The translations under genes were made by a program, and so were the position numbers. Positions 11,201-31,103 of a stretch of 64,000 nucleotides of DNA are shown here, piece by piece. Position 1 is the first letter of the stretch. The number at the start of each line of letters is the position of its first letter. Under the pieces are notes generated by a model that saw only the letters and a program-made list of their open reading frames with translations, did not search any database and had not been told where the DNA came from. The DNA is from Marinomonas sp. SBI8L (lineage in GTDB: Bacteria; Pseudomonadota; Gammaproteobacteria; Pseudomonadales; Marinomonadaceae): positions 310,001-374,000 of the forward strand of contig NZ_JSEO01000003.1 of assembly GCF_001624705.1 (NCBI RefSeq). Reading direction: 5' to 3'.

Positions 11201-11262
11201 TCAGCTTAAGATGCATATATTTTGAGTTAAGAGCATAACCGCTTTAAATACAGGAAATTAGA

Positions 11263-12651
11263 ATGACAAACATGATCAAAACCATCTCACCGATTAATGG
11301 TGAGGTTTATGTAGAGCGTCCACTCGCTTCAGTGAATGAAATAGACGATGTCTTAATCAAGGCTAAATTAGCTCAGCAAGCTTGGTCAGCAAAGAGCGTG
11401 GCTGAGCGTGCAAAAATCTGTACTGCGGCTGTTGATGCGTTTGTGGCGAACAAAGACGTGATAGCTAAAGAGCTAACTTGGCAAATGGGCCGTCCTATCC
11501 GTTACAGCCAAGGGGAAGTGGGTGGTTATGAAGAGCGTGCCCGTTACATGATAGGCGCAGCAGAAGAGGCGCTAGCGCCGTTACAGCTTGAAGAGAAAGC
11601 AGGGTTTACCCGTTACATTAAACGTGAAGCTCTGGGTGTCGTGTTTGTGGTTGCCCCTTGGAACTTCCCTTTTATGACGGCAATTAATGCGGTTATGCCG
11701 GCATTAATGGCAGGTAATGCTGTGCTACTTAAGCATTCAGCGCAAACGCCTTTGTGTGCTGAGCGTATGGTTGAATCCTTTGAGAAAGCAGGTCTACCAG
11801 CGGGCGTATTCCAATATCTACACCTTTCCCATGCGGATACTGAAAATATTATTGCCTCAGATAAGGTGGATTATGTTGCCTTTACTGGCTCTGTGGCGGG
11901 TGGTGAAATGGTGGAGAAAGCCGCTGCTGGTACCTTTAAAGGCACAGGTCTTGAGCTAGGGGGGAAAGACCCAGCTTATGTGCGCTCTGATGCCAATATT
12001 GATCAAGCGGTGGATACTGCCATTGATGGTGCTTTCTTTAACTCAGGCCAGTCATGTTGTGGTATCGAGCGTATTTATGTGCACGAGTCTGTCTATGATG
12101 AGTTCGTTGAAAAGGCTGTGGCATTGGTAAATGGCTATGTACTTGGTCGCTCTGATGATGAAAGCACAACCTTAGGTCCTGTGGTTAAAGCAAGCTCTGC
12201 CGACTTTATTCAAGGCCAGATTGATGAAGCTGTAGCACAAGGTGCGGTGGCACATATTGATAGCAAAACTTTTGCCATGGCAGAAAAAGGCACGCCTTAT
12301 TTAGCGCCACAAGTACTGACCAATGTGGATCATTCTATGCGTATTATGCAAGAAGAGTCCTTTGGCCCTGTGGTAGGTATCCAAAAAGTGACCGATGACG
12401 AAGCGGCGATCTCGTTAATGAATGACAGTGAGTTTGGTTTAACTGCCAGTGTGTTTACCACAGATGTAGAAGCCGGTATTGCAGTGGGTGAACGTCTTGA
12501 AACAGGGACTTTCTTTATCAACCGTTGTGACTACCTAGACCCTGCGCTAGCTTGGACTGGGGTGAAAAACTCAGGTAAGGGCTGCACCTTATCGTCTTTA
12601 GGGTATGACTATCTTACTCGTCCAAAATCTTTCCACATCAAACTGCCTTAG
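11263..12651 (+). CDS. NAD(P)-dependent aldehyde dehydrogenase
   Basis: A 462-residue aldehyde dehydrogenase. The cofactor-binding part carries APWNFPF and GSVAGGEMVEKAA, the general-base glutamate lies in ELGGKDPAYV, and the catalytic cysteine in FNSGQSCCG. This is the succinate-semialdehyde / lactaldehyde-like branch. In this operon the likely substrate is the aldehyde made by the next gene's alcohol dehydrogenase from a gamma-glutamyl amino alcohol, giving gamma-glutamylglycine if the amine is ethanolamine. It lies 62 bases after the ligase and 12 bases before the ADH gene, consistent with one operon. Family is certain; substrate is inferred from context. Confidence 0.9.
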   Translation: MTNMIKTISPINGEVYVERPLASVNEIDDVLIKAKLAQQAWSAKSVAERAKICTAAVDAFVANKDVIAKELTWQMGRPIRYSQGEVGGYEERARYMIGAAEEALAPLQLEEKAGFTRYIKREALGVVFVVAPWNFPFMTAINAVMPALMAGNAVLLKHSAQTPLCAERMVESFEKAGLPAGVFQYLHLSHADTENIIASDKVDYVAFTGSVAGGEMVEKAAAGTFKGTGLELGGKDPAYVRSDANIDQAVDTAIDGAFFNSGQSCCGIERIYVHESVYDEFVEKAVALVNGYVLGRSDDESTTLGPVVKASSADFIQGQIDEAVAQGAVAHIDSKTFAMAEKGTPYLAPQVLTNVDHSMRIMQEESFGPVVGIQKVTDDEAAISLMNDSEFGLTASVFTTDVEAGIAVGERLETGTFFINRCDYLDPALAWTGVKNSGKGCTLSSLGYDYLTRPKSFHIKLP

Positions 12652-17145: not shown

Positions 17146-17883
17146 TTATAGTTGTTCAAACTGTTTTAAGATTTTTTCATAGGTACCATTCGCCTGAATC
17201 ATAATAAAACCTGCGTTAAAATCATCACGAATTTTTTCAGCATCCTTTATATTTTTAGAAATCATTACATAAAGATCATTCTTTTCAATTGGAGGCTGCA
17301 CCATGCTTAATTGGCTTGGATCAATGCCAATTTTTCCGGCAATACTTTTCACCACAGATAAGTTATCGGCATATAGATTTATATCGCCTTTAGCCAAGGC
17401 TTTTAAACCTTCTTCTGCGCCGTTATAACCCTGAATACTCTCAAAAGGGAAAGCATCAAAACTTTGACTGATGACCGAGCCTTCCATCTTGCCAATCTTG
17501 TATTGGTTGAGCATTTCAAAAGAAGAGTAGAAATCCAGATCTAGACCTTCTTGTTTTATCACACCGGTTAATACTGAATAGATAGGAATCGAGACGTGAT
17601 AATCTTGTGCTCTATCTTCAGAATAGTAGGCGCCAACAAGCACATCTTTTTCTCCACTTTTAACCAGTCTCATTGCTTCTTTCCATTGGGTGAATTCAAG
17701 CTGGCTTTGATAACCTGATGCTTTAAATGATTCAGAGACTATGGTGGAAATAAAGCCACCTTGCTCTAATTCATTGCCATAAAATGGAACCCAATTCGTG
17801 GTTGTCATAGAGACTTCTTGAGCCTGAGCGAGACTGGCAAAACTTACGGATAAAGCAAAAGCAGTATTGATTAAAGCTTTCAT
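17146..17883 (-). CDS. Family 3 periplasmic solute-binding protein (paralogue 1 of 3)
   Basis: A 245-residue periplasmic binding protein. Residues 1-21 form a signal peptide ending SLAQAQE and the mature part is a two-lobed SBP_bac_3 domain. It opens with EVSMTTTNWVPFYG and GGFISTIVSES, features shared with the genes at 18198 and 19727, so the three are clearly paralogues. Family members usually feed polar amino acids to ABC permeases, but no permease or ATPase gene lies in this region. The protein may serve a distant transporter or a chemoreceptor/sensor. It has its own upstream gap and a terminator-like repeat downstream, so it is probably a single-gene unit. Confidence 0.85.
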   Translation of the reverse strand: MKALINTAFALSVSFASLAQAQEVSMTTTNWVPFYGNELEQGGFISTIVSESFKASGYQSQLEFTQWKEAMRLVKSGEKDVLVGAYYSEDRAQDYHVSIPIYSVLTGVIKQEGLDLDFYSSFEMLNQYKIGKMEGSVISQSFDAFPFESIQGYNGAEEGLKALAKGDINLYADNLSVVKSIAGKIGIDPSQLSMVQPPIEKNDLYVMISKNIKDAEKIRDDFNAGFIMIQANGTYEKILKQFEQL

Positions 17884-18001
17884 GAATAAACCTCATTTTT
17901 ATTTTTTTATGTTTAAAAAGCAGTGTTAATACGCGGCGTTTTAAAAGGTGCGTTTTAAGTGTTTCGCAGCCTAACCTAAAAGTTTTTGAGGAATACAATA
18001 A

Positions 18002-18029
18002 AAAGCCAGCGAATGGCTTCGCTGGCTTT
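18002..18029 (-). terminator. Intrinsic terminator of binding protein paralogue 2
   Basis: Perfect 12-bp stem (AAAGCCAGCGAA / TTCGCTGGCTTT) with a 4-base loop, followed on the minus strand by TTATTG. It lies about 170 bases past the stop of the gene at 18198-18935. Confidence 0.75.
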
Positions 18030-18197
18030 ATGCGGGTCGTAATTGATTAAAAATTGAACGGGCGTTTAATAAAAAACATCATGAAACAGATTGAAGGTTA
18101 ATCTTAAAAAGGGGGGAGAGGTTAAAAAAATATAAAGAGGGAAAGGCCATCCATGGCGGATTAGTGTTTTATCTGATTTGCTCTAATCTAGCTCTTA

Positions 18198-18935
18198 TTA
18201 GCTTTGGTTAAACCTAGCCAAAATTTTATCGTATGTGCCATTTACCTGAATTTGAATAAAACCTGCATTAAAAGCGTCTCTCAGTTTTTCTGCATCAGGT
18301 ATGTTTTTAGAGACAAGAATGTAGAGATCATTTTCTTCGATGGGCGGTTGCACCATCTTGAGTGAAGCTGGGTCCATCCCTATATCTGCAGCCACTTGCT
18401 TAACAACAGCAAAGCTATCTACATAAAGGTCAATATTGCCTGAGTTGAGCGCTTTTAGGCCGTCATCCACCCCTTCATAGCCAGTTAAGCTTTTAAATGG
18501 GTAAGCATCAAAGCTTTTCCCAACAACGGATTGATCTATCTTGCCTATCTTGTATTCATCAAGCATTTCGAAAGAATTATAAAAATCTAACGGCAGCCCA
18601 TCTTTTTTGATAATACCGGTTAATACCGAATAAATAGGGAGGGAGAAGTGGTAAAGCTTCTCTCTTTCTTCAGAGAAATAAGCACCCACAAGAATATCTT
18701 TATCACCTGTTTTGACTAGCTCTAATGCATTGCCCCAACTGGTGAACTCTAAGTTACTATCATAGCCTGCGGCTTTTAAAGACTCAGTCACAATAACAGA
18801 AATAAAACCGCCGTCATCTAGCTTAGAGCCATAAAAAGGTGCCCAATCTGTCGTCGTTAAACTGATTTCTTTTGCGTGAGTTAAGCCACTAAAACTCAGA
18901 CTGATAGTGGCGATTAAACTAATTATAAGTTTCAT
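18198..18935 (-). CDS. Family 3 periplasmic solute-binding protein (paralogue 2 of 3)
   Basis: A 245-residue exported binding protein (signal peptide about residues 1-21, cleaved after THA) that aligns end to end with its neighbours at 17146 and 19727. Shared landmarks are EISLTTTDWAPFYG, AGYDSNLEFTSW, DILVGAYFSEER, IYSVLTGIIKKDG and VQPPIEENDLYILVSKNIPDA. The differences between copies are spread along the whole length rather than clustered, which argues for old duplication and separate ligand preference. No transporter subunits are adjacent. Flanking gaps and the downstream terminator suggest independent transcription. Confidence 0.87.
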   Translation of the reverse strand: MKLIISLIATISLSFSGLTHAKEISLTTTDWAPFYGSKLDDGGFISVIVTESLKAAGYDSNLEFTSWGNALELVKTGDKDILVGAYFSEEREKLYHFSLPIYSVLTGIIKKDGLPLDFYNSFEMLDEYKIGKIDQSVVGKSFDAYPFKSLTGYEGVDDGLKALNSGNIDLYVDSFAVVKQVAADIGMDPASLKMVQPPIEENDLYILVSKNIPDAEKLRDAFNAGFIQIQVNGTYDKILARFNQS

Positions 18936-19138
18936 CCTTTAGCTCCATAAAATTAAATTTATATCGGCTTATATGAAGATGAGAACTTACTAATCTATAA
19001 GCCAGCTAAAGATAAAAGATAGTCAAAAAAAACGGTTTTATAAATGTGTTCATTTTTTATTGTTGAATACAGAGAAGAGAGTTTGCCTCAGCGATTGTAT
19101 TTTAGGCTGAGGCGGGTGGCTTTTAACTTGTTACTTAC

Positions 19139-19489
19139 CTAGCCTGCCTCGTTATCCATCTTTTTGCCCAAACGATAACAATCTAAAACAGTAACTAACC
19201 AAGTTGAAAATAAGAAAAGGGATAGGTACTCAATAAAGTTTGAGCCATAAAGAGAAGGGCCAGACATGAGCTTTTGAGTAATCAAAATAGGATCAAAGCT
19301 CATTTCACCCGCTAAAATTTCTTTAGATATGATATCGGCTTTGAACATAGCGTCTTTCATGATAATGACCAATGAAAGCAGGGTTACCAGCAGGGCCATA
19401 CTGCCATGCCAAGGTTTTGCCAAGATAAAATACCCTGCCCCAGGAAATACAGTAGTGCAAAGAAGGGGAGCTTTACGGGACTTTTTCAT
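19139..19489 (-). CDS. Small membrane protein, unknown
   Basis: A 116-residue protein with two or three hydrophobic segments (about residues 10-24, 28-46 and 86-104) and a central hydrophilic loop. It starts with a basic MKKSRKAP and contains PGAGYFILAKPWHG, a glycine/proline pattern seen in several small unnamed membrane families. I do not recognise a specific family. It sits between binding-protein paralogues 2 and 3 on the same strand, with about 200 bases on either side, so it is probably transcribed alone. An inverted repeat (GCCTCAGC / GCTGAGGC, 19085-19113) lies downstream. Any link to the binding proteins is positional only. Confidence 0.6.
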   Translation of the reverse strand: MKKSRKAPLLCTTVFPGAGYFILAKPWHGSMALLVTLLSLVIIMKDAMFKADIISKEILAGEMSFDPILITQKLMSGPSLYGSNFIEYLSLFLFSTWLVTVLDCYRLGKKMDNEAG

Positions 19490-19726
19490 TTAATAACCTT
19501 TGAATCTTTGTGTAGCAAATAGTCTGCGCATCTTAACATCAGATTGAATTTATCAGAGTAAAAAGATTGGCTAGCGACGGCTTGCTAAAGGGGCTTGAAA
19601 TTGCACCTAACAATATAACAAGAAGAAGCTGAATGAGGGAAGGGAATGAAGAAGTGAGCTTGAATATTTGTCTTAAAATGATGAAATGCCATCCCTGGCT
19701 TATGCTAGAGCCTATTCGTCGCTTCC

Positions 19727-20539
19727 CTAAATTTGGTTAAAGTCCTTCAAAATAGTTTCATAAGTCCCATTGGCTTGAATCTGAATAAAGCCAGCATTAA
19801 ATGCATCTCTTAATTCAATCGCATTAGGAATATTTTTAGAGATAAGCACATATAAATCGTTTTCTTCTAAAGGTGGTTGTACTAGCTGTAGCTGTGATGA
19901 GTCCATCCCTAAATCGGTAGCAACCTGTTTAACAACCGCCACACTGTCTATGTACAAATCAATTTGACCTTGGTCTAGGGCTTTCAAGCCATCTGCTACA
20001 CCAGGGTAACCTGTTAGGCTATTAAAAGAATAAGCGTCAAAGCTTTTTCCAACGACAGAGCCTTCAATTTTACCCAGTTTATATTTGTTCAACTCATCGA
20101 ATGAATTAACAAAATTAAGTGGGAATTCTTGTTTTTTGATGACGCCTGTCATGAGTGAATAAATAGGGATAGAAATATGAAAGTCTCTTGCTCTCTCCTC
20201 AGAGAAATAAGCGCCAACTAACATGTCTTTCTCGCCCACTTTGACCTTTTCAAAGGCTTCTGTCCAATCACTAAAAACAATATTACTTGTATAGCCAGAT
20301 GCCTTTAGGGATTCCGCCACTATGGCAGAAACAAAGCCACCACGATCCAAAGAGCTACCGTAAAAAGGGGCCCAATCGGTTGTTGTCAGAGAAATTTCTT
20401 GTGCTTGTGCAGTGCTAGAAACACTCAAACCAAGAGCTAATCCAAGACTTAAACCTAACGTACTCACACCTAAGCCAATGGACCTAGATAGACTTTTTAC
20501 TCGATCTTTAACGCTTAATTTTTGCAACAAAATGATCAC
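19727..20539 (-). CDS. Family 3 periplasmic solute-binding protein (paralogue 3 of 3)
   Basis: A 270-residue binding protein, longer than its paralogues because of an N-terminal extension: residues 1-20 are basic (KLSVKDRVKSLSRS) before a long hydrophobic signal segment ending STAQAQE near residue 47. The start may be later than annotated, but no better-placed ATG precedes the hydrophobic stretch. The mature domain has the same landmarks (EISLTTTDWAPFYG, DMLVGAYFSEER, VQPPLEENDLYVLISKNIP). As with the others there are no permease genes. It is the first and most upstream copy of the tandem set. Confidence 0.86.
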   Translation of the reverse strand: MIILLQKLSVKDRVKSLSRSIGLGVSTLGLSLGLALGLSVSSTAQAQEISLTTTDWAPFYGSSLDRGGFVSAIVAESLKASGYTSNIVFSDWTEAFEKVKVGEKDMLVGAYFSEERARDFHISIPIYSLMTGVIKKQEFPLNFVNSFDELNKYKLGKIEGSVVGKSFDAYSFNSLTGYPGVADGLKALDQGQIDLYIDSVAVVKQVATDLGMDSSQLQLVQPPLEENDLYVLISKNIPNAIELRDAFNAGFIQIQANGTYETILKDFNQI

Positions 20540-22087: not shown

Positions 22088-22131
22088 ATTGCGCTTGTAG
22101 GAATTTCCTAAAAGTTATAATTGCCGAATTA

Positions 22132-22217
22132 ACAAAGCGCCTCTTCACTGCTAACAAAGAGACTCTTCGTTGCTAACAAAGCGCCTCTTCGCTGCTAACA
22201 AAGTGGCTCTTCGAGCC
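22132..22217. repeat. 22-bp tandem repeat, 3 full units plus a partial
   Basis: Units start at 22132, 22154 and 22176, each ACAAAG-N3-CTCTTC-N4-GCTA-like and 22 bases long, with a fourth, partial unit at 22198-22217. The fourth unit is the 3' end of the hydrolase gene (the region coding EEPLC and the stop), so the array looks like repeated slippage of the gene's end. Confidence 0.8.
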
Positions 22218-23475
22218 AGGGCGTCTCTATCTTAAGAATCGATGCCAGTGTGGGTGCTACCTGAGAGGCTGTCGCAAATTCCACCTCTTGTTGCGGCACA
22301 TCTGGCCCAACAAAAAGACAAAAACGATAATCTTCACGAGAACCTGGTCGCATACCATGGTTAGATTGATATTTAGATTTTCCGCTAATCTGACCTGTGC
22401 CTTTCAAGTCCCTTTCAAAACTGGTTAGCGCCCCTTCTTTAGAGGTGAAAACAAGCAATTCGTCCTGCTGATGTTTAGGAATAAAGTCTTTATTCCAGGT
22501 TTCTAAACCCGCTTCTAGCAATATCTTGGTGACTTGTTCTGCTTCCGTTTGGGATCTTGGAGCGATAAGCAACATGCCTCCTTCACTAGACCAGCGTACG
22601 CCTTCGGGTAGAATCTGGTCGCAATAAATGGCCTCTGTCATCGCCGTATGGCCGTGGTCACTCATGATGGCAAAGTTATACTCATCCAGCTTGCCTGCTT
22701 GTCTTAGCCTTTCTAACAAAGTGCCCACTTGTGCATCGGCGGTACGTAGTGAATGCTCCATCATAGGGTCACCTGCTCCGTACTTATGCAAAAAGTAATC
22801 GGTCGCCGCAATTTCTAGCAAGATAAGGTCTGGCGCATCATCAGAGCAAGCAAGACCAGCGCCTATATCTAATAGTTGCTGATCAGCCAATATGCCAAAG
22901 GTCATGGTTTCTGTATTGCTATAGTCTTGGTATTTAGCGCCATTTGGGTTAATTACCTTGGTCGCATAAATGGCCTCATCCAAGGTTTTTAAAGTGTCCT
23001 TTGTATGCTCAGCAAGGGCATGTTTAAAGTCTTGATTATCTTGCTGCTTTTTTCTTTCCTCTAGAGAGTAAGAATCATAGTTTCTAGCTCTGTTTGTGGT
23101 TTCATCAGACCACCAAGGGTCAAGATAAAGGTCACAATCTTGGGTATTCACCATGCCATAACCTAGGCCTGCTACCTTCTTGTTAGCTTGCTTGGCATAG
23201 CCTGCCACTGTGGTGGTTAATACATCTTCAGGAATCGCCCAACGAAACTCAGTACCATCCCAAACCTTATTGCCATACACCCCATGTTCGGCGGCGGTTT
23301 GTCCTGCAATCATAGAGGTACGGCCGGGAAAAGAGGTGCCGCAGACTTCAGGCGTTAAGGCTCTCACATAGGTGCCTTGGCTCGCCAAAGCATGCAAGTT
23401 GGGTAACCAAGCTTTCGCTTGCACAAATAGGTCGGCACTGATGCCATCTATCATAATGAGGATAAGCTTACTCAT
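22195..23475 (-). CDS. Alkaline phosphatase superfamily (NPP-like) phosphodiesterase or phosphonate hydrolase
   Basis: A 426-residue hydrolase of the nucleotide pyrophosphatase/phosphodiesterase branch. Metal and nucleophile sites are visible: D10 in LIMIDG, a TSFPGRTSM motif where S48 (or T47) is the likely nucleophile, DYFLHKYG, SDHGHTAM and a late NHGMRPG histidine. There is no signal peptide, so it acts in the cytoplasm. It is the third gene of an operon with TmpB-like and TmpA-like oxygenases (22 bases downstream of the former). In that setting it may free a phosphonate from an ester, or hydrolyse a related phosphonate. It is not a canonical phosphonoacetate hydrolase by motif, but that family is related. 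The substrate is unknown. Confidence 0.8.
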   Translation of the reverse strand: MSKLILIMIDGISADLFVQAKAWLPNLHALASQGTYVRALTPEVCGTSFPGRTSMIAGQTAAEHGVYGNKVWDGTEFRWAIPEDVLTTTVAGYAKQANKKVAGLGYGMVNTQDCDLYLDPWWSDETTNRARNYDSYSLEERKKQQDNQDFKHALAEHTKDTLKTLDEAIYATKVINPNGAKYQDYSNTETMTFGILADQQLLDIGAGLACSDDAPDLILLEIAATDYFLHKYGAGDPMMEHSLRTADAQVGTLLERLRQAGKLDEYNFAIMSDHGHTAMTEAIYCDQILPEGVRWSSEGGMLLIAPRSQTEAEQVTKILLEAGLETWNKDFIPKHQQDELLVFTSKEGALTSFERDLKGTGQISGKSKYQSNHGMRPGSREDYRFCLFVGPDVPQQEVEFATASQVAPTLASILKIETPWLEEPLC

Positions 23476-23497
23476 AGACAGAACTCCTTGTAGCGGC

Positions 23498-24064
23498 TTA
23501 AGCAGCAGGCTGAATTAACAGCTTCTGCATCATAGGAATATAGTGATTCAGATCTGGGACAGTAAGGGAATCCTGCTTGCCAGCATCATCCCAGTAACGC
23601 ACTTTTACCGCATCTTGATGATAAGGCTCGGCTTCAAACTGCGCCACTTCATCCGTATTCATCGGGCCGCCTTGAACCGCTAGCGACTCTTTCGATGCCT
23701 CAGAAAGTACCTCGTAATACTCAGGTTTTACCGCGCATAAATAGCGTTTGCTCGCCACATGTAGACGAATCGCATCGAGTACTCTTTGAGGGAAATGCCC
23801 TGCTAAAAAGTCCGCGGCACTGTCTTCGTGTTCGTTATCTATGCCTTTTTGCAGGCAATCTTCGGCATATTCACTGGTGTAGTGGCCAATATCATGCAAA
23901 AGGGCCGCTATGATAAGTTCGTCGTCGGCACCGGCTTGCATAGCAAAAAAGGCAGATTGCAGCATGTGCTCAGCCATGGTGACAGGTTCGCCCATGTACC
24001 AGTCAGCACCATGATCACTAAAGAGCGCTTCTATCTTGGCTAGAATTGAGTTTTCGTTTGTCAT
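23498..24064 (-). CDS. HD-domain diiron oxygenase, TmpB/PhnZ-like
   Basis: A 188-residue HD-domain protein of the PhnZ/TmpB oxygenase type rather than a phosphohydrolase. The PhnZ signature residues line up with a one-residue offset: Y23 and E26 (YMGEPVT), H33, H57-D58 and H61 (LLHDIGH), with later histidines in DNEHEDSA and RLHVASKRYL. In characterised members this mixed-valent diiron enzyme cleaves the C-P bond of a 1-hydroxyphosphonate: PhnZ gives glycine plus phosphate, TmpB gives glycine betaine plus phosphate. It lies 20 bases downstream of the TmpA-like gene, the known functional pairing. The GBBH-like partner favours the trimethylated substrate, but this is inference. Confidence 0.88.
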   Translation of the reverse strand: MTNENSILAKIEALFSDHGADWYMGEPVTMAEHMLQSAFFAMQAGADDELIIAALLHDIGHYTSEYAEDCLQKGIDNEHEDSAADFLAGHFPQRVLDAIRLHVASKRYLCAVKPEYYEVLSEASKESLAVQGGPMNTDEVAQFEAEPYHQDAVKVRYWDDAGKQDSLTVPDLNHYIPMMQKLLIQPAA

Positions 24065-24084
24065 TCTTACGTCTCCTTATCTGA

Positions 24085-25278
24085 TTAGTTTGATGTCTTC
24101 TTAGCTGATGGGGTTGATGTGATTCGAGCGTCAGTTTCTGTCTTACGAGATAACACAGATTGCAAACTGTATAAGCTATCGACATCCGCATAAGCTCCTT
24201 GTAACCAACGGCTGCCAGAGGTCGAAAAAGCCTTTCTAGCGTGGAAAACACGGGTGTTATCAAACATCACAAGTTGGCCCTGTGTGAGCTTGAAATCAAT
24301 CATGATGCTGGTGCGATTTAGTATCTCAGCATAGTGCTGATAGGCTTTATAGAAGGCTTTCATTTTATGCTTATCGATATTGATCGGGGCAATCGAGCGG
24401 TTGTTAAAGCGTACTTTGACCACCTGATCATTATCATTCACTTCAATCAAAGGCACCCGGGACTGAAGGTCTGTGTCTTTATCTTGAAAGCGAAAATTAA
24501 TCCAAGTTTGGCTTAAAAGGTCAAAATCAGCTTGGCTTTCTTCTCTTAGAATATTGGCCGCTTTAAAGCCATCCCCAAGAATGGATTCACCACCTTCTAC
24601 CGTGTTTTCCAAGCAATGCAATAACTGTACTGTTGGTACTGGGTCGCGATAAGGGTTATCCGCATGCAGACCTAAGCCTAAATTTGTAAAAGCGAGGTTG
24701 TTTGGCTCAACTTGTGTTTTCACCTCAAACAACTTGCCATAGTTAGTGTCTCTGACATAACCAAAGGTGTCGATCACATCAAGAATTTGGCTTTCTTTAC
24801 AAGGGACATTCTCTAAAATGGCAAAACCATAAAGAGCAAAGTGATCGAATAAAGCGCGGCTAGTATCTTTGTTGCTTAGGTAGGCTTCATAGTCGAACAC
24901 AGATTTTTCTGTGCTAAAACTCGAATCCCATAAAACCTTATTTTGTTCTGAGTAAATATCATTGGCGAGGTGTTTGTCATACGCATTTTGCTCAAGCCAT
25001 TCCAAGCTAAACACACTGCGATGTAGTGGCGAGAAGATAATCTCAACATGCTGATTATCCAATGCTGTGATCGACTCTATGCTCACATCTAAAGGAAAGT
25101 CAGTCACATTCATAAGGCGCTGGCCACTGTGGGCATCGCGACTCTCGGGCATTTGGCAATGGTCTCTTAACCAGATCGCGAGAAACTCGCTGTTATGACC
25201 ATCATTCCATTCAATATTTAACTGAGTGCTGTCGTGCGCTATTGAGAGCTTATGGCCATTTGCCATTGCAATACTCAT
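24085..25278 (-). CDS. 2-oxoglutarate Fe(II) dioxygenase, TmpA-like (gamma-butyrobetaine hydroxylase family)
   Basis: A 397-residue non-heme iron dioxygenase. The N-terminal GBBH-like domain (about residues 10-100) has WLRDHC at 36-41, and the TauD-like catalytic core (about 140-370) has the HxD...H triad at H205, D207 (LGLHADNPYRDP) and H346 (NTRVFHAR). These proteins are usually annotated as gamma-butyrobetaine hydroxylase. Next to a PhnZ/TmpB-type HD oxygenase, the better reading is TmpA, which hydroxylates 2-trimethylaminoethylphosphonate at C1. Only one cysteine (C41) remains where the human enzyme has a three-Cys zinc site, so that site may be altered. It is the first gene of the leftward operon and divergent from a LysR gene. 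Confidence 0.85.
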   Translation of the reverse strand: MSIAMANGHKLSIAHDSTQLNIEWNDGHNSEFLAIWLRDHCQMPESRDAHSGQRLMNVTDFPLDVSIESITALDNQHVEIIFSPLHRSVFSLEWLEQNAYDKHLANDIYSEQNKVLWDSSFSTEKSVFDYEAYLSNKDTSRALFDHFALYGFAILENVPCKESQILDVIDTFGYVRDTNYGKLFEVKTQVEPNNLAFTNLGLGLHADNPYRDPVPTVQLLHCLENTVEGGESILGDGFKAANILREESQADFDLLSQTWINFRFQDKDTDLQSRVPLIEVNDNDQVVKVRFNNRSIAPINIDKHKMKAFYKAYQHYAEILNRTSIMIDFKLTQGQLVMFDNTRVFHARKAFSTSGSRWLQGAYADVDSLYSLQSVLSRKTETDARITSTPSAKKTSN

Positions 25279-25372
25279 GTTTCACTACCTCATTATATTT
25301 GCCTTATCACAAGTTAAGCATGCCTGTGATTTGTATGAATATGATGACAAACTAAAAGGGATAAAAACATTG

Positions 25373-25403
25373 AGAATTTCCAAAGTGCTAGTATAGAAAT
25401 TCT
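25373..25403. promoter_or_regulatory. Candidate LysR operator between tmpA-like gene and its regulator
   Basis: Perfect 8-bp inverted repeat AGAATTTC / GAAATTCT with 15 bases between the arms, located in the 274-base divergent gap, about 95 bases before the dioxygenase start and 150 before the LysR start. Size and position fit a LysR-type activation site. Confidence 0.55.
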
Positions 25404-25552
25404 AAAGTATTCAGTTTTTAATTAGGTTAAAAATTGACCCAACACCATAAATATTGCATTTTGATGACGATTTTATTGCCGCGAGAGATTTTTATCTCAT
25501 CTATGCTATAGAATTGCTAAAATCGAGACAGGATAAAAAAGGACGTAACCTC

Positions 25553-26488
25553 ATGCCTCAAGCTCAAAGCTTACCGCCATTAAATGCCCTTCGCGCATTT
25601 GAAGCCGCAGCGCGATTACAGAACCTAGCGAAGGCCGCAGCCGAGCTACATGTCACCCAAGGGGCAGTGAGTCAGCAAATTAAATTGTTAGAACAATACC
25701 TTGATACCCAGCTTTTTTATCGCAGAGCAAAAGGGCTAGAACTAACTGACAGCGCCAAAGCTTATTTACCTGTCTTAACTCAAGCTTTTACCAATATGCA
25801 GGCAACCACCAACGAGCTGTTTGTGTCCGACTATCGCCCCACTATTAAAGTGGCCTGTGGTACCACTTTTGCCCAATGTTGGTTAATGCCAAGATTACCC
25901 AAGTTTTTTGCTAAGCATCCAGAGTATCGAGTGAGACTGCTAAGTTCGGCTTGGCCAACAGGCCAGGGTGTTAATGATGCTGATGTGGAAATTTGCCATG
26001 GGGAAGGGGGCTTTTCTGGTTATCGAGTACAACGCATTATTAAAGAAGACTGGATGGTGATCGCCAGCCCCAGCTTTATCGAAACACACCTGCCAGAGGG
26101 GGAGGATCAGTTTAATGACTTAGACCAGATGAAAAGCCTCCCACTTATTAGCACATTGGGTTTTAAGCTAGGTTGGCGTAACTGGTTTAGTGAGCTAGGT
26201 GAAGAAGGCTTTCAGCCTGAACCCTTGTTTGAAAGTAACCACACCTCTACCGCATTAGAAATGGCACAAGCAGGCGTTGGCTTATTACTGGGTTTGTCTT
26301 TTTGTTTTCGTATGGCGTTAGATGAAGGCAAGGTGGTTAAGGTGCACGATCACATAATGCCAGCAGAAGGTGGCCAGTATCTGATTCTATCGAATGCCAC
26401 TATCACACCTAAAGTGGATACATTTTGTCGTTGGATGTTAGCAGAGCTAGCGGATCATCCTGATAGAGACAATTTAGAGTGGGGATAG
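25553..26488 (+). CDS. LysR family regulator (GcvA-like), probable regulator of phosphonate operon
   Basis: A LysR-type regulator of 311 residues from the ATG at 25553. The reading frame is open upstream to 25454, but AAAAAAGGACG just before 25553 and the canonical start of the fold (LPPLNALRAFEAAARLQNLA) favour this start. The helix-turn-helix covers about residues 8-65 and the effector domain follows. It is transcribed away from the TmpA/TmpB/hydrolase operon across an inverted repeat of LysR type, so it is the likely activator, with the phosphonate or an intermediate as inducer. The GcvA-like subgroup is also used for many amino acid and aromatic pathways. Confidence 0.88.
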   Translation: MPQAQSLPPLNALRAFEAAARLQNLAKAAAELHVTQGAVSQQIKLLEQYLDTQLFYRRAKGLELTDSAKAYLPVLTQAFTNMQATTNELFVSDYRPTIKVACGTTFAQCWLMPRLPKFFAKHPEYRVRLLSSAWPTGQGVNDADVEICHGEGGFSGYRVQRIIKEDWMVIASPSFIETHLPEGEDQFNDLDQMKSLPLISTLGFKLGWRNWFSELGEEGFQPEPLFESNHTSTALEMAQAGVGLLLGLSFCFRMALDEGKVVKVHDHIMPAEGGQYLILSNATITPKVDTFCRWMLAELADHPDRDNLEWG

Positions 26489-29300: not shown

Positions 29301-31103
29301 CTATTTTTCTTGTTTGAGTAACACGCTATCGACGTACATGGCTTTGCACATGGCAATCATCATTAAGCCTAGGATCATAGCGAAGGGCAGTGCGCCTATT
29401 ATCATGGCATTTCTTAGTGCTTCCATAGGGTTGTTATCGCCTGCGGCTAAAAGCAAAGTACCAATGACGGCAGTGAGGATGGCTCCCCAAACAATGCGAT
29501 GCTTAATGCCTGCATCTTGATCGCCACCTGACATGATTGTATTCATCACAAGAATACCCGAATCAGCAGACGTGATTAGGAATGTGAGAACCAAAATGAC
29601 GCACATGATATTAACCAGTGCTAAAAACTCACCTTCTAATAAGTAGCCTAATGTTATAAATAATTTATTTGTATTTGAAGCGTCAATAATTGATCCGTCT
29701 GCAACGCCACTTAATTCAAGGTCAATCGCTGTCGCACCTAATATTGTCATCCAAGCGAAACAAACCAAAGAGGGTGCGATGACACAGCCTAAAATGAATT
29801 CACGAATCGTTCGGCCTTTTGAAATTCGAGCAAGGAATAAGCCGACAAAAGGCGCATATGCCACCATCCAAGCCCAATAAAAGGTTGTCCAGCCTGCTTG
29901 CCATGCAAATTGACGGCCTTCATTTCCTGCTATATACGCTTGTTTAAGAGTACCTTCATCAAGTGCTGCTGCATTATCGGATAAGCTCGACAAGAAGCTT
30001 TGATAACTTCCCCAAGCATTCGTTGAATTAGCGAATAGTTCGCTTGAAAATGCTTTTGCAGATTCAGGGATGAGATCTAAGTATTGAGATTCATTCATTG
30101 GTAAATAGGCATTAAATGAGAGTGAAATATAATGCAAAATATAATCAACAAACGCAGTGCCATAGGTGGTCATCGCAAATAAAAATGAACCAAAGAAAAC
30201 AAATATTAATAACAAGAATATAGATAAGATTAAATTAAGGTTAGAAAGGTATTTAACCCCTCTTCCGACACCTGATACAGCAGAAACAATTGATAAAATC
30301 ATGATTAATGCTAAGCCAGCGATTAACCCTGCATTACTGGGTGTTGGTATATCGCCACTGATATTCATAATCCATTCGATGCCGGTAATTGTATAGATGC
30401 CATCAATTAACTGGCTCACACCAAAGCCGATTGTTGTTGATACAGCCAAAATAGTGGCAACAACACCCAGTATGTCAATTATGTGGCCTAATACACCATT
30501 GGCATATCTTCCGATTAAAGGGGTTAGGGTCGACCTTAAAGTGAGAGGCATGCCTCGGGTATATGAACAATAGGCTAACGCTAAACCTACGATGACAAAG
30601 ACTCCCCAAGTATGAAATCCATAATGCGCAAAGGTATAACGATAGGTAGGTAAGAGAGCCTCAACCGTATTGGCCTCAACGTCTTGGGCTAATATTGCGG
30701 GGTTAGATGCCCAAAGGCCTAAGGGTTCAGCGGTCGAAAAAACCATCAAGCCAACACCTAAACCGGCCCCAAACATCATTGAAAACCATGAGAAGGTTGA
30801 GAATTCTGGCTTATCACCGGGCAAGCCCATTACGCGTTTTCCTATCGAAGGAACAACCGCAATAAAAATGAGAAAGCATGAAAAAAGGCCAAATAAGATG
30901 ATATAGAAAGCATTAAAGTTTTCGAGAAGAGCCCACTTTATACTTCCCAGTAAATTATTTGTAGATTCAGGCCATAAGAGAGCCCAAAGCGCTAGGGCAA
31001 TAATAATGCTCTTACTGCCTAATGCGATTGGAACACTATAGTTTTGATAAAACCCCGTGTCAGATTTTTTTATAACAACATCAGTAAACTCTGGTTTTAT
31101 CAT
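29301..31103 (-). CDS. BCCT family betaine/choline/carnitine transporter
   Basis: A 600-residue transporter with about 12 membrane segments. The BCCT signature is clear: a glycine-rich MFGAGLGVGLMVFSTAEPL near residue 112, and WTTFYWAWMVAYAPFVG followed by ARISKGRTIREF in the second half. These carriers take up glycine betaine, choline, carnitine or similar zwitterions with Na+ or H+. It is longer than a typical member because of a polar insertion of about 60 residues before the YWAW motif, between membrane segments. There is no obvious long osmosensory C-terminal tail, so it is more likely catabolic uptake than osmoregulation. It appears monocistronic. Confidence 0.93.
   Translation of the reverse strand: MIKPEFTDVVIKKSDTGFYQNYSVPIALGSKSIIIALALWALLWPESTNNLLGSIKWALLENFNAFYIILFGLFSCFLIFIAVVPSIGKRVMGLPGDKPEFSTFSWFSMMFGAGLGVGLMVFSTAEPLGLWASNPAILAQDVEANTVEALLPTYRYTFAHYGFHTWGVFVIVGLALAYCSYTRGMPLTLRSTLTPLIGRYANGVLGHIIDILGVVATILAVSTTIGFGVSQLIDGIYTITGIEWIMNISGDIPTPSNAGLIAGLALIMILSIVSAVSGVGRGVKYLSNLNLILSIFLLLIFVFFGSFLFAMTTYGTAFVDYILHYISLSFNAYLPMNESQYLDLIPESAKAFSSELFANSTNAWGSYQSFLSSLSDNAAALDEGTLKQAYIAGNEGRQFAWQAGWTTFYWAWMVAYAPFVGLFLARISKGRTIREFILGCVIAPSLVCFAWMTILGATAIDLELSGVADGSIIDASNTNKLFITLGYLLEGEFLALVNIMCVILVLTFLITSADSGILVMNTIMSGGDQDAGIKHRIVWGAILTAVIGTLLLAAGDNNPMEALRNAMIIGALPFAMILGLMMIAMCKAMYVDSVLLKQEK

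Follow-up and report, generated by a model that had tools for sequence, protein, structure and literature searches.

Why does a hydrolase of the alkaline phosphatase superfamily share an operon with two oxygenases of a phosphonate-degrading type? This question is raised by a locus of Marinomonas sp. SBI8L (contig NZ_JSEO01000003.1, positions 310,001 to 374,000), a stretch of 64,000 nucleotides that is called the window throughout this paper. On its minus strand (22195-25278) a tmpA-like gene, a tmpB-like gene and a gene for an NPP-like hydrolase form an operon, which is divergent from a LysR gene. The TmpA/TmpB pathway of Leisingera caerulea was reportedly introduced by Rajakovich in 2019. Two components of the system considered here are already known, namely the TmpAB route as described for Leisingera caerulea (PMC10574752; PMC8177086) and phosphonate monoester hydrolases of another subfamily (PMC5649143). 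We conclude that the operon probably encodes a TmpA/TmpB-type oxidative phosphonate pathway, which is extended one step upstream by an ester hydrolase. Among the matches listed in the open-licence literature, titles and abstract openings contained no description of this hydrolase beside TmpAB or carbon-phosphorus (C-P) lyase.

From the gene order, the family scores, the conserved catalytic residues, the predicted fold and the repeated co-location of the hydrolase with C-P-breaking enzymes, a peptide-family importer and rhizobial phosphonate-making genes, we infer a substrate, an ester cleavage, a direction of the pathway and a mode of regulation. The compound entering the cell would be a small phosphonate ester, R-P(O)(O-)-OR', in which R is most likely 2-trimethylammonioethyl. 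The NPP-like hydrolase would attack the phosphorus via Ser48 at its two-metal site and thereby split the ester into the alcohol R'OH and the phosphonate. On the latter, TmpA would hydroxylate the carbon next to phosphorus and TmpB would split the C-P bond to yield phosphate and glycine betaine. The divergent LysR regulator would control the operon, probably via an inverted repeat at 25374-25402.

The oxygenase pair

The first protein of the operon carries TauD and GBBH-like_N domains (Pfam). It scored 435.1 bits with the TmpA equivalog model NF049936 (cut-off 400) and missed the gamma-butyrobetaine dioxygenase equivalog (404.4 bits, cut-off 414.75). Its nearest solved structure is TmpA (6npb), with 314 bits versus 162 bits for human GBBH. 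The residues H205, D207 and H346, which had been assigned to a GBBH-like dioxygenase, are present in the alignment to solved structures. In TmpA the phosphonate is held by N187, N287 and R288 (PMC9296572), and the window protein has N, N and R at the aligned positions; the TmpA chain numbering in this alignment is shifted by 6, consistently at all three positions. When 35 aligned rows were compared, one of them TmpA itself, Arg288 was present in all ten rows that have a full-length TmpB close by and in six of the 24 other rows. A weak or short HD match lies beside each of these six, and the 18 rows lacking Arg288 have no HD match in their 1.5 kb flanks. At the aromatic positions that presumably surround the trimethylammonium group (we take them from butyrobetaine hydroxylase), the window protein has Y, F, F, Y versus Y, F, Y, Y in TmpA.

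The second protein has an HD domain and reached 218.3 bits with the phosphonate HD oxygenase model TIGR03276 (cut-off 214.6). TmpB (6npa) is its nearest solved structure, with 186 bits versus 137 bits for PhnZ. All six residues originally predicted for a PhnZ/TmpB-type protein (Y23, E26, H33, H57, D58, H61) were found, and the first two form the YxxE loop, which is a feature of PhnZ and TmpB (PMC8177086). Because of the family scores, the phosphonate-site residues and the closer similarity to TmpB than to PhnZ, 2-trimethylammonioethylphosphonate is most likely the first substrate of the oxygenase pair.

The TmpA-like proteins of loci L046, L048 and L049 score over the TmpA cut-off, but W, A, D and M replace Y, F, N and Y at the substrate positions. 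N and R are kept, only a short TmpB match adjoins these proteins, and they perhaps accept another substrate. The window's genome carries two more TmpA/GBBH-like genes below the TmpA cut-off (G000:C35:339800-340882 and G000:C5:93740-94810).

The hydrolase

The assignment of the third gene to the alkaline phosphatase superfamily agrees with its Pfam matches (Phosphodiest and, more weakly, Sulfatase), and its PF01663 score of 134.6 bits exceeds the gathering cut-off of 23. The two-metal ligand and nucleophile set (D10, S48, D226, H230, D273, H274, H373) is invariant in the alignment of the hydrolase family, in which an invariant Arg was also found. The predicted fold is that of an NPP, and the nearest folds listed are NPPs, including ENPP6. 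Since the protein begins at the metal-binding strand (Asp10), there is no room for a signal peptide and the enzyme is presumably made without one.

Three more specific assignments were considered. A PhnA-type C-P hydrolase was rejected, because the TIGR02335 score amounts to 27.6 bits at a cut-off of 407.55. Formylglycine phosphonate monoester hydrolases have a Cys nucleophile that is matured to formylglycine. The nucleophile position of the window family is occupied by Ser48, not Cys, in 20 of 20 aligned members, and a formylglycine nucleophile is what the title of the paper cited for phosphonate monoester hydrolases names (PMC5649143). An ENPP6-type choline diesterase was rejected as well, since the choline-pocket residues Tyr72, Tyr75 and Tyr188 of ENPP6 (PMC4757880) correspond to Phe49, Arg52 and Glu221.

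Genomic context of the hydrolase in gammaproteobacteria

The hydrolase is rare. Strong matches (E < 1e-70) were obtained in three of 293 genomes of the order; at E 0.001 there were matches in 16, of which the other 13 are weak and partial. At 1e-30 it was found in one of 369 genomes of the class and at 1e-40 in one of 398 genomes of the phylum, in both cases the window's own, and it was found in none of the 12 other genomes of the genus in our sample.

We compared 16 gammaproteobacterial hydrolase loci (the window, 13 from one search and two from another), of which three (L022, L026, L030) are short contigs and one (L028) is truncated on one side. In five of them (window, L020, L021, L022, L030) a tmpA-like gene adjoins the hydrolase gene and a tmpB-like gene lies within 3 kb. 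Thus, the linkage between hydrolase and TmpAB exceeds chance, because the hydrolase is rare and yet adjoins tmpA in five of 16 loci. A peptide-family ATP-binding cassette (ABC) transporter was located near the hydrolase in eight loci (L020, L023, L024, L025, L026, L027, L031, L078), and no recognisable partner gene was seen around the hydrolase of L079. A Tmp-specific hydrolase was rejected, as 11 of the 16 loci lack TmpAB. The hydrolase gene of Aliamphritea spongicola (L031 10001-11259) is broken up into two reading frames and may be decaying.

On the hydrolase tree, the TmpAB-linked enzymes occupy two separate places and a single clade was rejected (p-AU 0.0005, approximately unbiased (AU) test). 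Similarly, the hydrolase-linked TmpAs do not form one clade on the TmpA tree (p-AU 0.0008). For both values it should be kept in mind that the AU test presumes a group named before the tree is seen, and that our group was named by gene context. The two Tmp-linked settings also differ in their regulator (LysR versus AraC) and in gene order. The simplest reading is that the partnership of hydrolase and TmpAB was assembled at least twice; an old hydrolase-TmpAB cluster with later losses is a possible alternative.

A related arrangement was seen on a plasmid of Labrenzia sp. THAF187b (L086 4820-7403), where LysR, tmpA and tmpB genes are followed by a gene for a 281-aa PF01663-like protein of another subfamily. 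This protein is annotated as alkaline phosphatase family, is hardly similar to the window hydrolase (E 0.005) and shares 35% identity with the PF01663 protein that adjoins the hydrolase in L027. The latter (L027 8694-9533, 279 aa, of the Labrenzia kind) is encoded less than 500 bp from the hydrolase, with a HAD-family gene on its other side. Ten TmpAB loci outside the hydrolase set (L086-L095) were scanned with three single proteins and the family profile, and a PF01663-like neighbour was seen in Labrenzia L086 only. Relatives of the Labrenzia-type 281-aa protein occur on 198 plasmid records, 179 of them from Enterococcus; three loci outside Enterococcus were viewed.

Rhizobial plasmid relatives

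A plasmid search yielded 14 records with hydrolases 30-38% identical to that of the window, and all 14 were fetched and scanned. A peptide-family ABC binding protein is encoded in every one of these stretches, and PhnI and PhnJ of the C-P lyase are encoded in eight of them; on whole plasmids PhnJ was likewise found on eight of 14. The genome of the window itself gave no PhnJ match when searched for C-P lyase. Phosphoenolpyruvate (PEP) mutase was present in two of the 14 fetched stretches and a CDP-alcohol-phosphotransferase match in three, but the whole plasmid records carry PEP mutase in 12 of 14 cases (ten over the equivalog cut-off). On eight plasmids (L035-L041; records W03-W09, W14) PEP mutase and hydrolase are no more than about 20 kb apart.

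We examined seven of these eight PEP mutase neighbourhoods, all but that of W14. An aminotransferase and a cytidylyltransferase adjoin in all seven and a CDP-alcohol-phosphotransferase match in five, the names cytidylyltransferase and CDP-alcohol phosphotransferase being taken mostly from the annotation of the records, with weak support from curated models. This neighbourhood is likely an ester-forming gene set, which would activate a phosphonate for transfer to an alcohol. Since such a set would join phosphonate and alcohol, the hydrolase looks like the reverse step. The original prediction that the hydrolase could free a phosphonate from an ester is strengthened by these relatives, which sit with C-P lyase and near phosphonate-making genes, and by the two separate tree positions of the TmpAB-linked enzymes.

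Three plasmids picked for PEP mutase carry the same phosphonate-making set. The Agrobacterium plasmid pAt2 (L126, 11929-17137) and S. meliloti AK83 pSINME02 (L127), which are not among the 14 with hydrolase, have a phosphonate-making cluster with ABC transporter genes nearby. According to MOB-suite, ten of the 14 hydrolase plasmids are conjugative. PEP mutase near an importer and a hydrolase, on several plasmids together with C-P lyase, resembles the make-and-use logic of opines or rhizopines.

The importer

Four binding proteins were compared with solved structures, and for three of them (MED121 L020 and rhizobial L035 and L039) AccA was the closest match, the E-values ranging from 6e-68 to 1e-89 versus 1e-23 to 7e-37 for the next family. 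AccA imports agrocinopine, a sugar phosphodiester, which is then cleaved by AccF (PMC4526662). On the basis of this similarity we guess that R' might be a sugar or a small polyol. A lipid head group, the other substrate that had been envisaged, is not favoured, as a signal peptide would presumably not fit before the metal-binding strand and three of the four binding proteins compared resemble the sugar-phosphodiester importer. As judged by eye, L035 seems to keep the two tyrosines with which AccA holds the phosphate but MED121 does not, so that the ligand may differ.

The binding proteins of L092 and L093, which have TmpAB without hydrolase, group with those of L023, L024, L025 and L031, which have the hydrolase without TmpAB. 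Shinella L096, which carries a gene of the 281-aa type, falls into the same group (SH-aLRT 99, quick tree), and Labrenzia L086 falls outside. This grouping would tie the two enzyme sets to related imported compounds. At the window, no AccA-like binding protein adjoins the operon. The BCCT transporter encoded at 29301-31103 was considered as dedicated importer but found no support, as no similar open reading frame (ORF) was seen by eye in the listed MED121 stretch.

Gene organization and regulation

The coordinates of the operon and of the adjacent elements are given in Table 1. As originally predicted, the three genes are separated by 20 and 22 bp and diverge from the LysR gene, and the ORF coordinates agree with this layout. 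In Marinomonas sp. MED121 (L020) the same four genes were found with 94-96% identity. For the LysR gene, the ATG at 25553 is most likely the start rather than the mechanical TTG at 25454; the MED121 ORF begins at the same residue.

Table 1. Features of the probable phosphonate locus (positions in the window)
Feature	Position	Strand	Remarks
tmpA-like Fe(II)/2-oxoglutarate dioxygenase	24085..25278	-	397 aa, first gene of the operon
tmpB/phnZ-like HD-domain oxygenase	23498..24064	-	188 aa
NPP-like hydrolase	22195..23475	-	426 aa, candidate cytoplasmic phosphonate-ester hydrolase
LysR-family regulator	25553..26488	+	311 aa, divergent
Candidate operator, perfect inverted repeat GAATTTC-N15-GAAATTC	25374..25402	.	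between tmpA and lysR
Direct repeat of 22 bp, 3.8 copies	22130..22213	.	overlaps last codons of the hydrolase gene, continues downstream

The window LysR is 46-65% identical to the LysR proteins of the hydrolase loci L023, L024, L025 and L032, whose genes lie about 7-8 kb from the hydrolase in three cases and adjacent to it in L025. Its identity to the LysR proteins of seven TmpAB loci without this hydrolase (L043-L045, L086, L087, L089, L090) is 28-33%. In a quick tree it groups with the LysR proteins of the hydrolase loci (SH-aLRT 99), apart from L043-L045. The inverted repeat has no mismatches in the window and in MED121, and a single further match in the window, located within tmpA, deviates at two positions. 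In Motiliproteus L032, the LysR gene and the phoA-hydrolase pair are preceded by sites that deviate at one and two positions, and a third match has three mismatches; these three matches at up to three mismatches compare with 1.34 expected, and a count of three was reached in 12 of 100 shuffles. Near the hydrolase of L025 the repeat matched at chance level only. The LysR grouping and the sites in L032 weakly suggest that the regulator came with the hydrolase and that tmpA and tmpB were placed under its control.

Direct repeats of 22 bp similar to those listed in Table 1 were seen by eye in MED121 (L020, about 11260-11330), where they likewise start within the end of the hydrolase gene and continue beyond it. 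Elsewhere in the window (17146-20539), three paralogous genes encode proteins of 245-270 aa that, by eye, resemble amino-acid-type periplasmic binding proteins.

Evaluation of alternative explanations

Several observations weigh against a phosphonate-ester pathway. To our knowledge, no activity is known for any member of the hydrolase family. The oxygenases had been predicted to be of the TmpA/TmpB type, and family scores and substrate-site residues agree with this; however, the HD protein stays under the cut-off of the TmpB equivalog NF049941 (235.4 versus 300 bits), and we therefore file it as TmpB-like and not as TmpB. In L021, L022 and L030 the TmpA-like proteins score 386-397 bits (cut-off 400) and the TmpB-like proteins 237-239 bits (cut-off 300) and 192 bits with TIGR03276 (cut-off 214.6). 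Ser replaces Asn287 in two of the three, and their substrate is less sure because all three cut-offs were missed. The three-gene neighbourhood, the conservation of which in relatives had been proposed as a check, is kept in other gammaproteobacterial loci, but most TmpAB loci seen do without the hydrolase. Of the 51 TmpA-like matches listed for the order, 30 loci were fetched; they contain six TmpA+TmpB pairs, and one of these, that of the window, has the hydrolase. Thus, the hydrolase is dispensable for the core route. As to the rhizobial relatives, the 14 loci share ancestry (several are >85% identical) and do not represent 14 independent cases. PEP mutase matched 93 of 72,556 plasmids (E 1e-50, with another query and threshold), but 71 of these 93 come from Rhizobium, Sinorhizobium, Agrobacterium, Bradyrhizobium and Mesorhizobium, so that taxonomy confounds this contrast. 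In L039, the CDP-alcohol phosphotransferase matched no curated family and the cytidylyltransferase stayed under all cut-offs. Finally, the binding protein of L092 does not resemble AccA, and for that of MED121 the window genome offers no close copy (best match 27%).

The main alternative is a general phospho- and phosphonodiesterase, i.e. a cytoplasmic enzyme for small phosphodiesters such as glycerophosphocholine, which would accept phosphonate esters at most as side substrate. The tmpA/tmpB neighbourhood would then reflect a general scavenging of phosphorus and quaternary amines. Such an enzyme is favoured by the HAD-family genes in the vicinity of the hydrolase in eight of the 16 gammaproteobacterial loci (within about 6 kb in L023, L024, L027, L028, L029 and L078, within 10 kb in L025 and L031), none of which has TmpAB, and by the bet/cho genes and the PhoA-type phosphatase beside the hydrolase of Motiliproteus L032; all these loci fit phosphate esters as well. 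ENPP6, with which it has the Ser nucleophile in common, is among the nearest folds, but the choline pocket is not conserved, and the C-P lyase beside and the PEP mutase near the rhizobial relatives are phosphonate-specific. We consider this alternative rather unlikely. It is very unlikely that the third gene is a passenger joined to tmpAB by chance, without role in the pathway. The five TmpAB pairs lacking it and its absence from the other genomes of the genus would be compatible with such a scenario, but hydrolase and tmpAB are found together in two separate clades of a rare family, where the regulator and the gene order differ, and hydrolase relatives keep phosphonate company elsewhere. Direct cleavage of the C-P bond by the hydrolase, in analogy to phosphonoacetate hydrolase PhnA, has hardly any probability. 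PhnA belongs to the same superfamily and there is a weak local match to its model, but the score is far under the cut-off, the nearest listed folds are NPPs and, next to C-P lyase or TmpAB, there would be no need for another enzyme that breaks C-P bonds.

Most C-P-breaking enzymes have been described on free phosphonates. A wider picture can be drawn, for which we argue entirely from gene neighbourhoods and which we put forward as a tentative, somewhat doubtful possibility. The hydrolase family may mark overlooked soluble phosphonate esters, which would be imported whole and eaten by plug-in modules consisting of an importer, an ester hydrolase and a C-P breaker. Rhizobial plasmids would pair makers and eaters of such compounds, and the marine combination of hydrolase and TmpA/TmpB would use a choline-like version. 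In that case, with maker and eater clusters sharing plasmids that are often conjugative, the compounds may act like phosphonate opines or rhizopines. The phosphonates of marine dissolved polysaccharides are esters, and ester degradation has been postulated as a key step, for which enzymes were merely suggested (PMC5649143). With its genomic links to TmpAB and to C-P lyase, the hydrolase offers a concrete candidate for this degradation, and the rhizobial maker and eater clusters offer a testable handle on the role of esterified phosphonates.

Comparison with known systems

With NPP/ENPP phosphodiesterases (PF01663), and ENPP6 in particular, the window hydrolase has the fold, the bimetal ligands and the Ser nucleophile in common. 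Unlike ENPP6, it has Phe, Arg and Glu in place of the choline-pocket tyrosines and probably lacks a signal peptide. The phosphonate monoester hydrolases of Rhizobium leguminosarum and Burkholderia caryophylli (PMC5649143) belong to the same alkaline phosphatase superfamily and resemble it in the hydrolysis of phosphonate monoesters, which for the window enzyme is a proposal; in contrast to them, it has an S-x-P-x-R nucleophile motif and the full set of two-metal NPP ligands.

At the level of the pathway, the closest parallel to the import and cleavage of an ester is the acc operon of Agrobacterium Ti plasmids (AccA, AccBCDE, AccF, AccG; PMC4526662), which combines a peptide-family importer, a cytoplasmic diesterase and a phosphorus-releasing step. 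AccA-like binding proteins are shared by MED121 and by rhizobial L035 and L039. However, the diesterase is NPP-like here, C-P lyase or TmpAB replaces the phosphatase AccG, and no such importer is encoded next to the window operon. With TmpA/TmpB of Leisingera caerulea the window shares the two oxygenase families and the gene pair, and a divergent LysR gene is also found at other TmpAB loci. Unlike the Leisingera system, the window has the NPP-like hydrolase as third gene in the operon, and unlike three TmpAB loci without hydrolase, its LysR belongs with the regulators of hydrolase loci.

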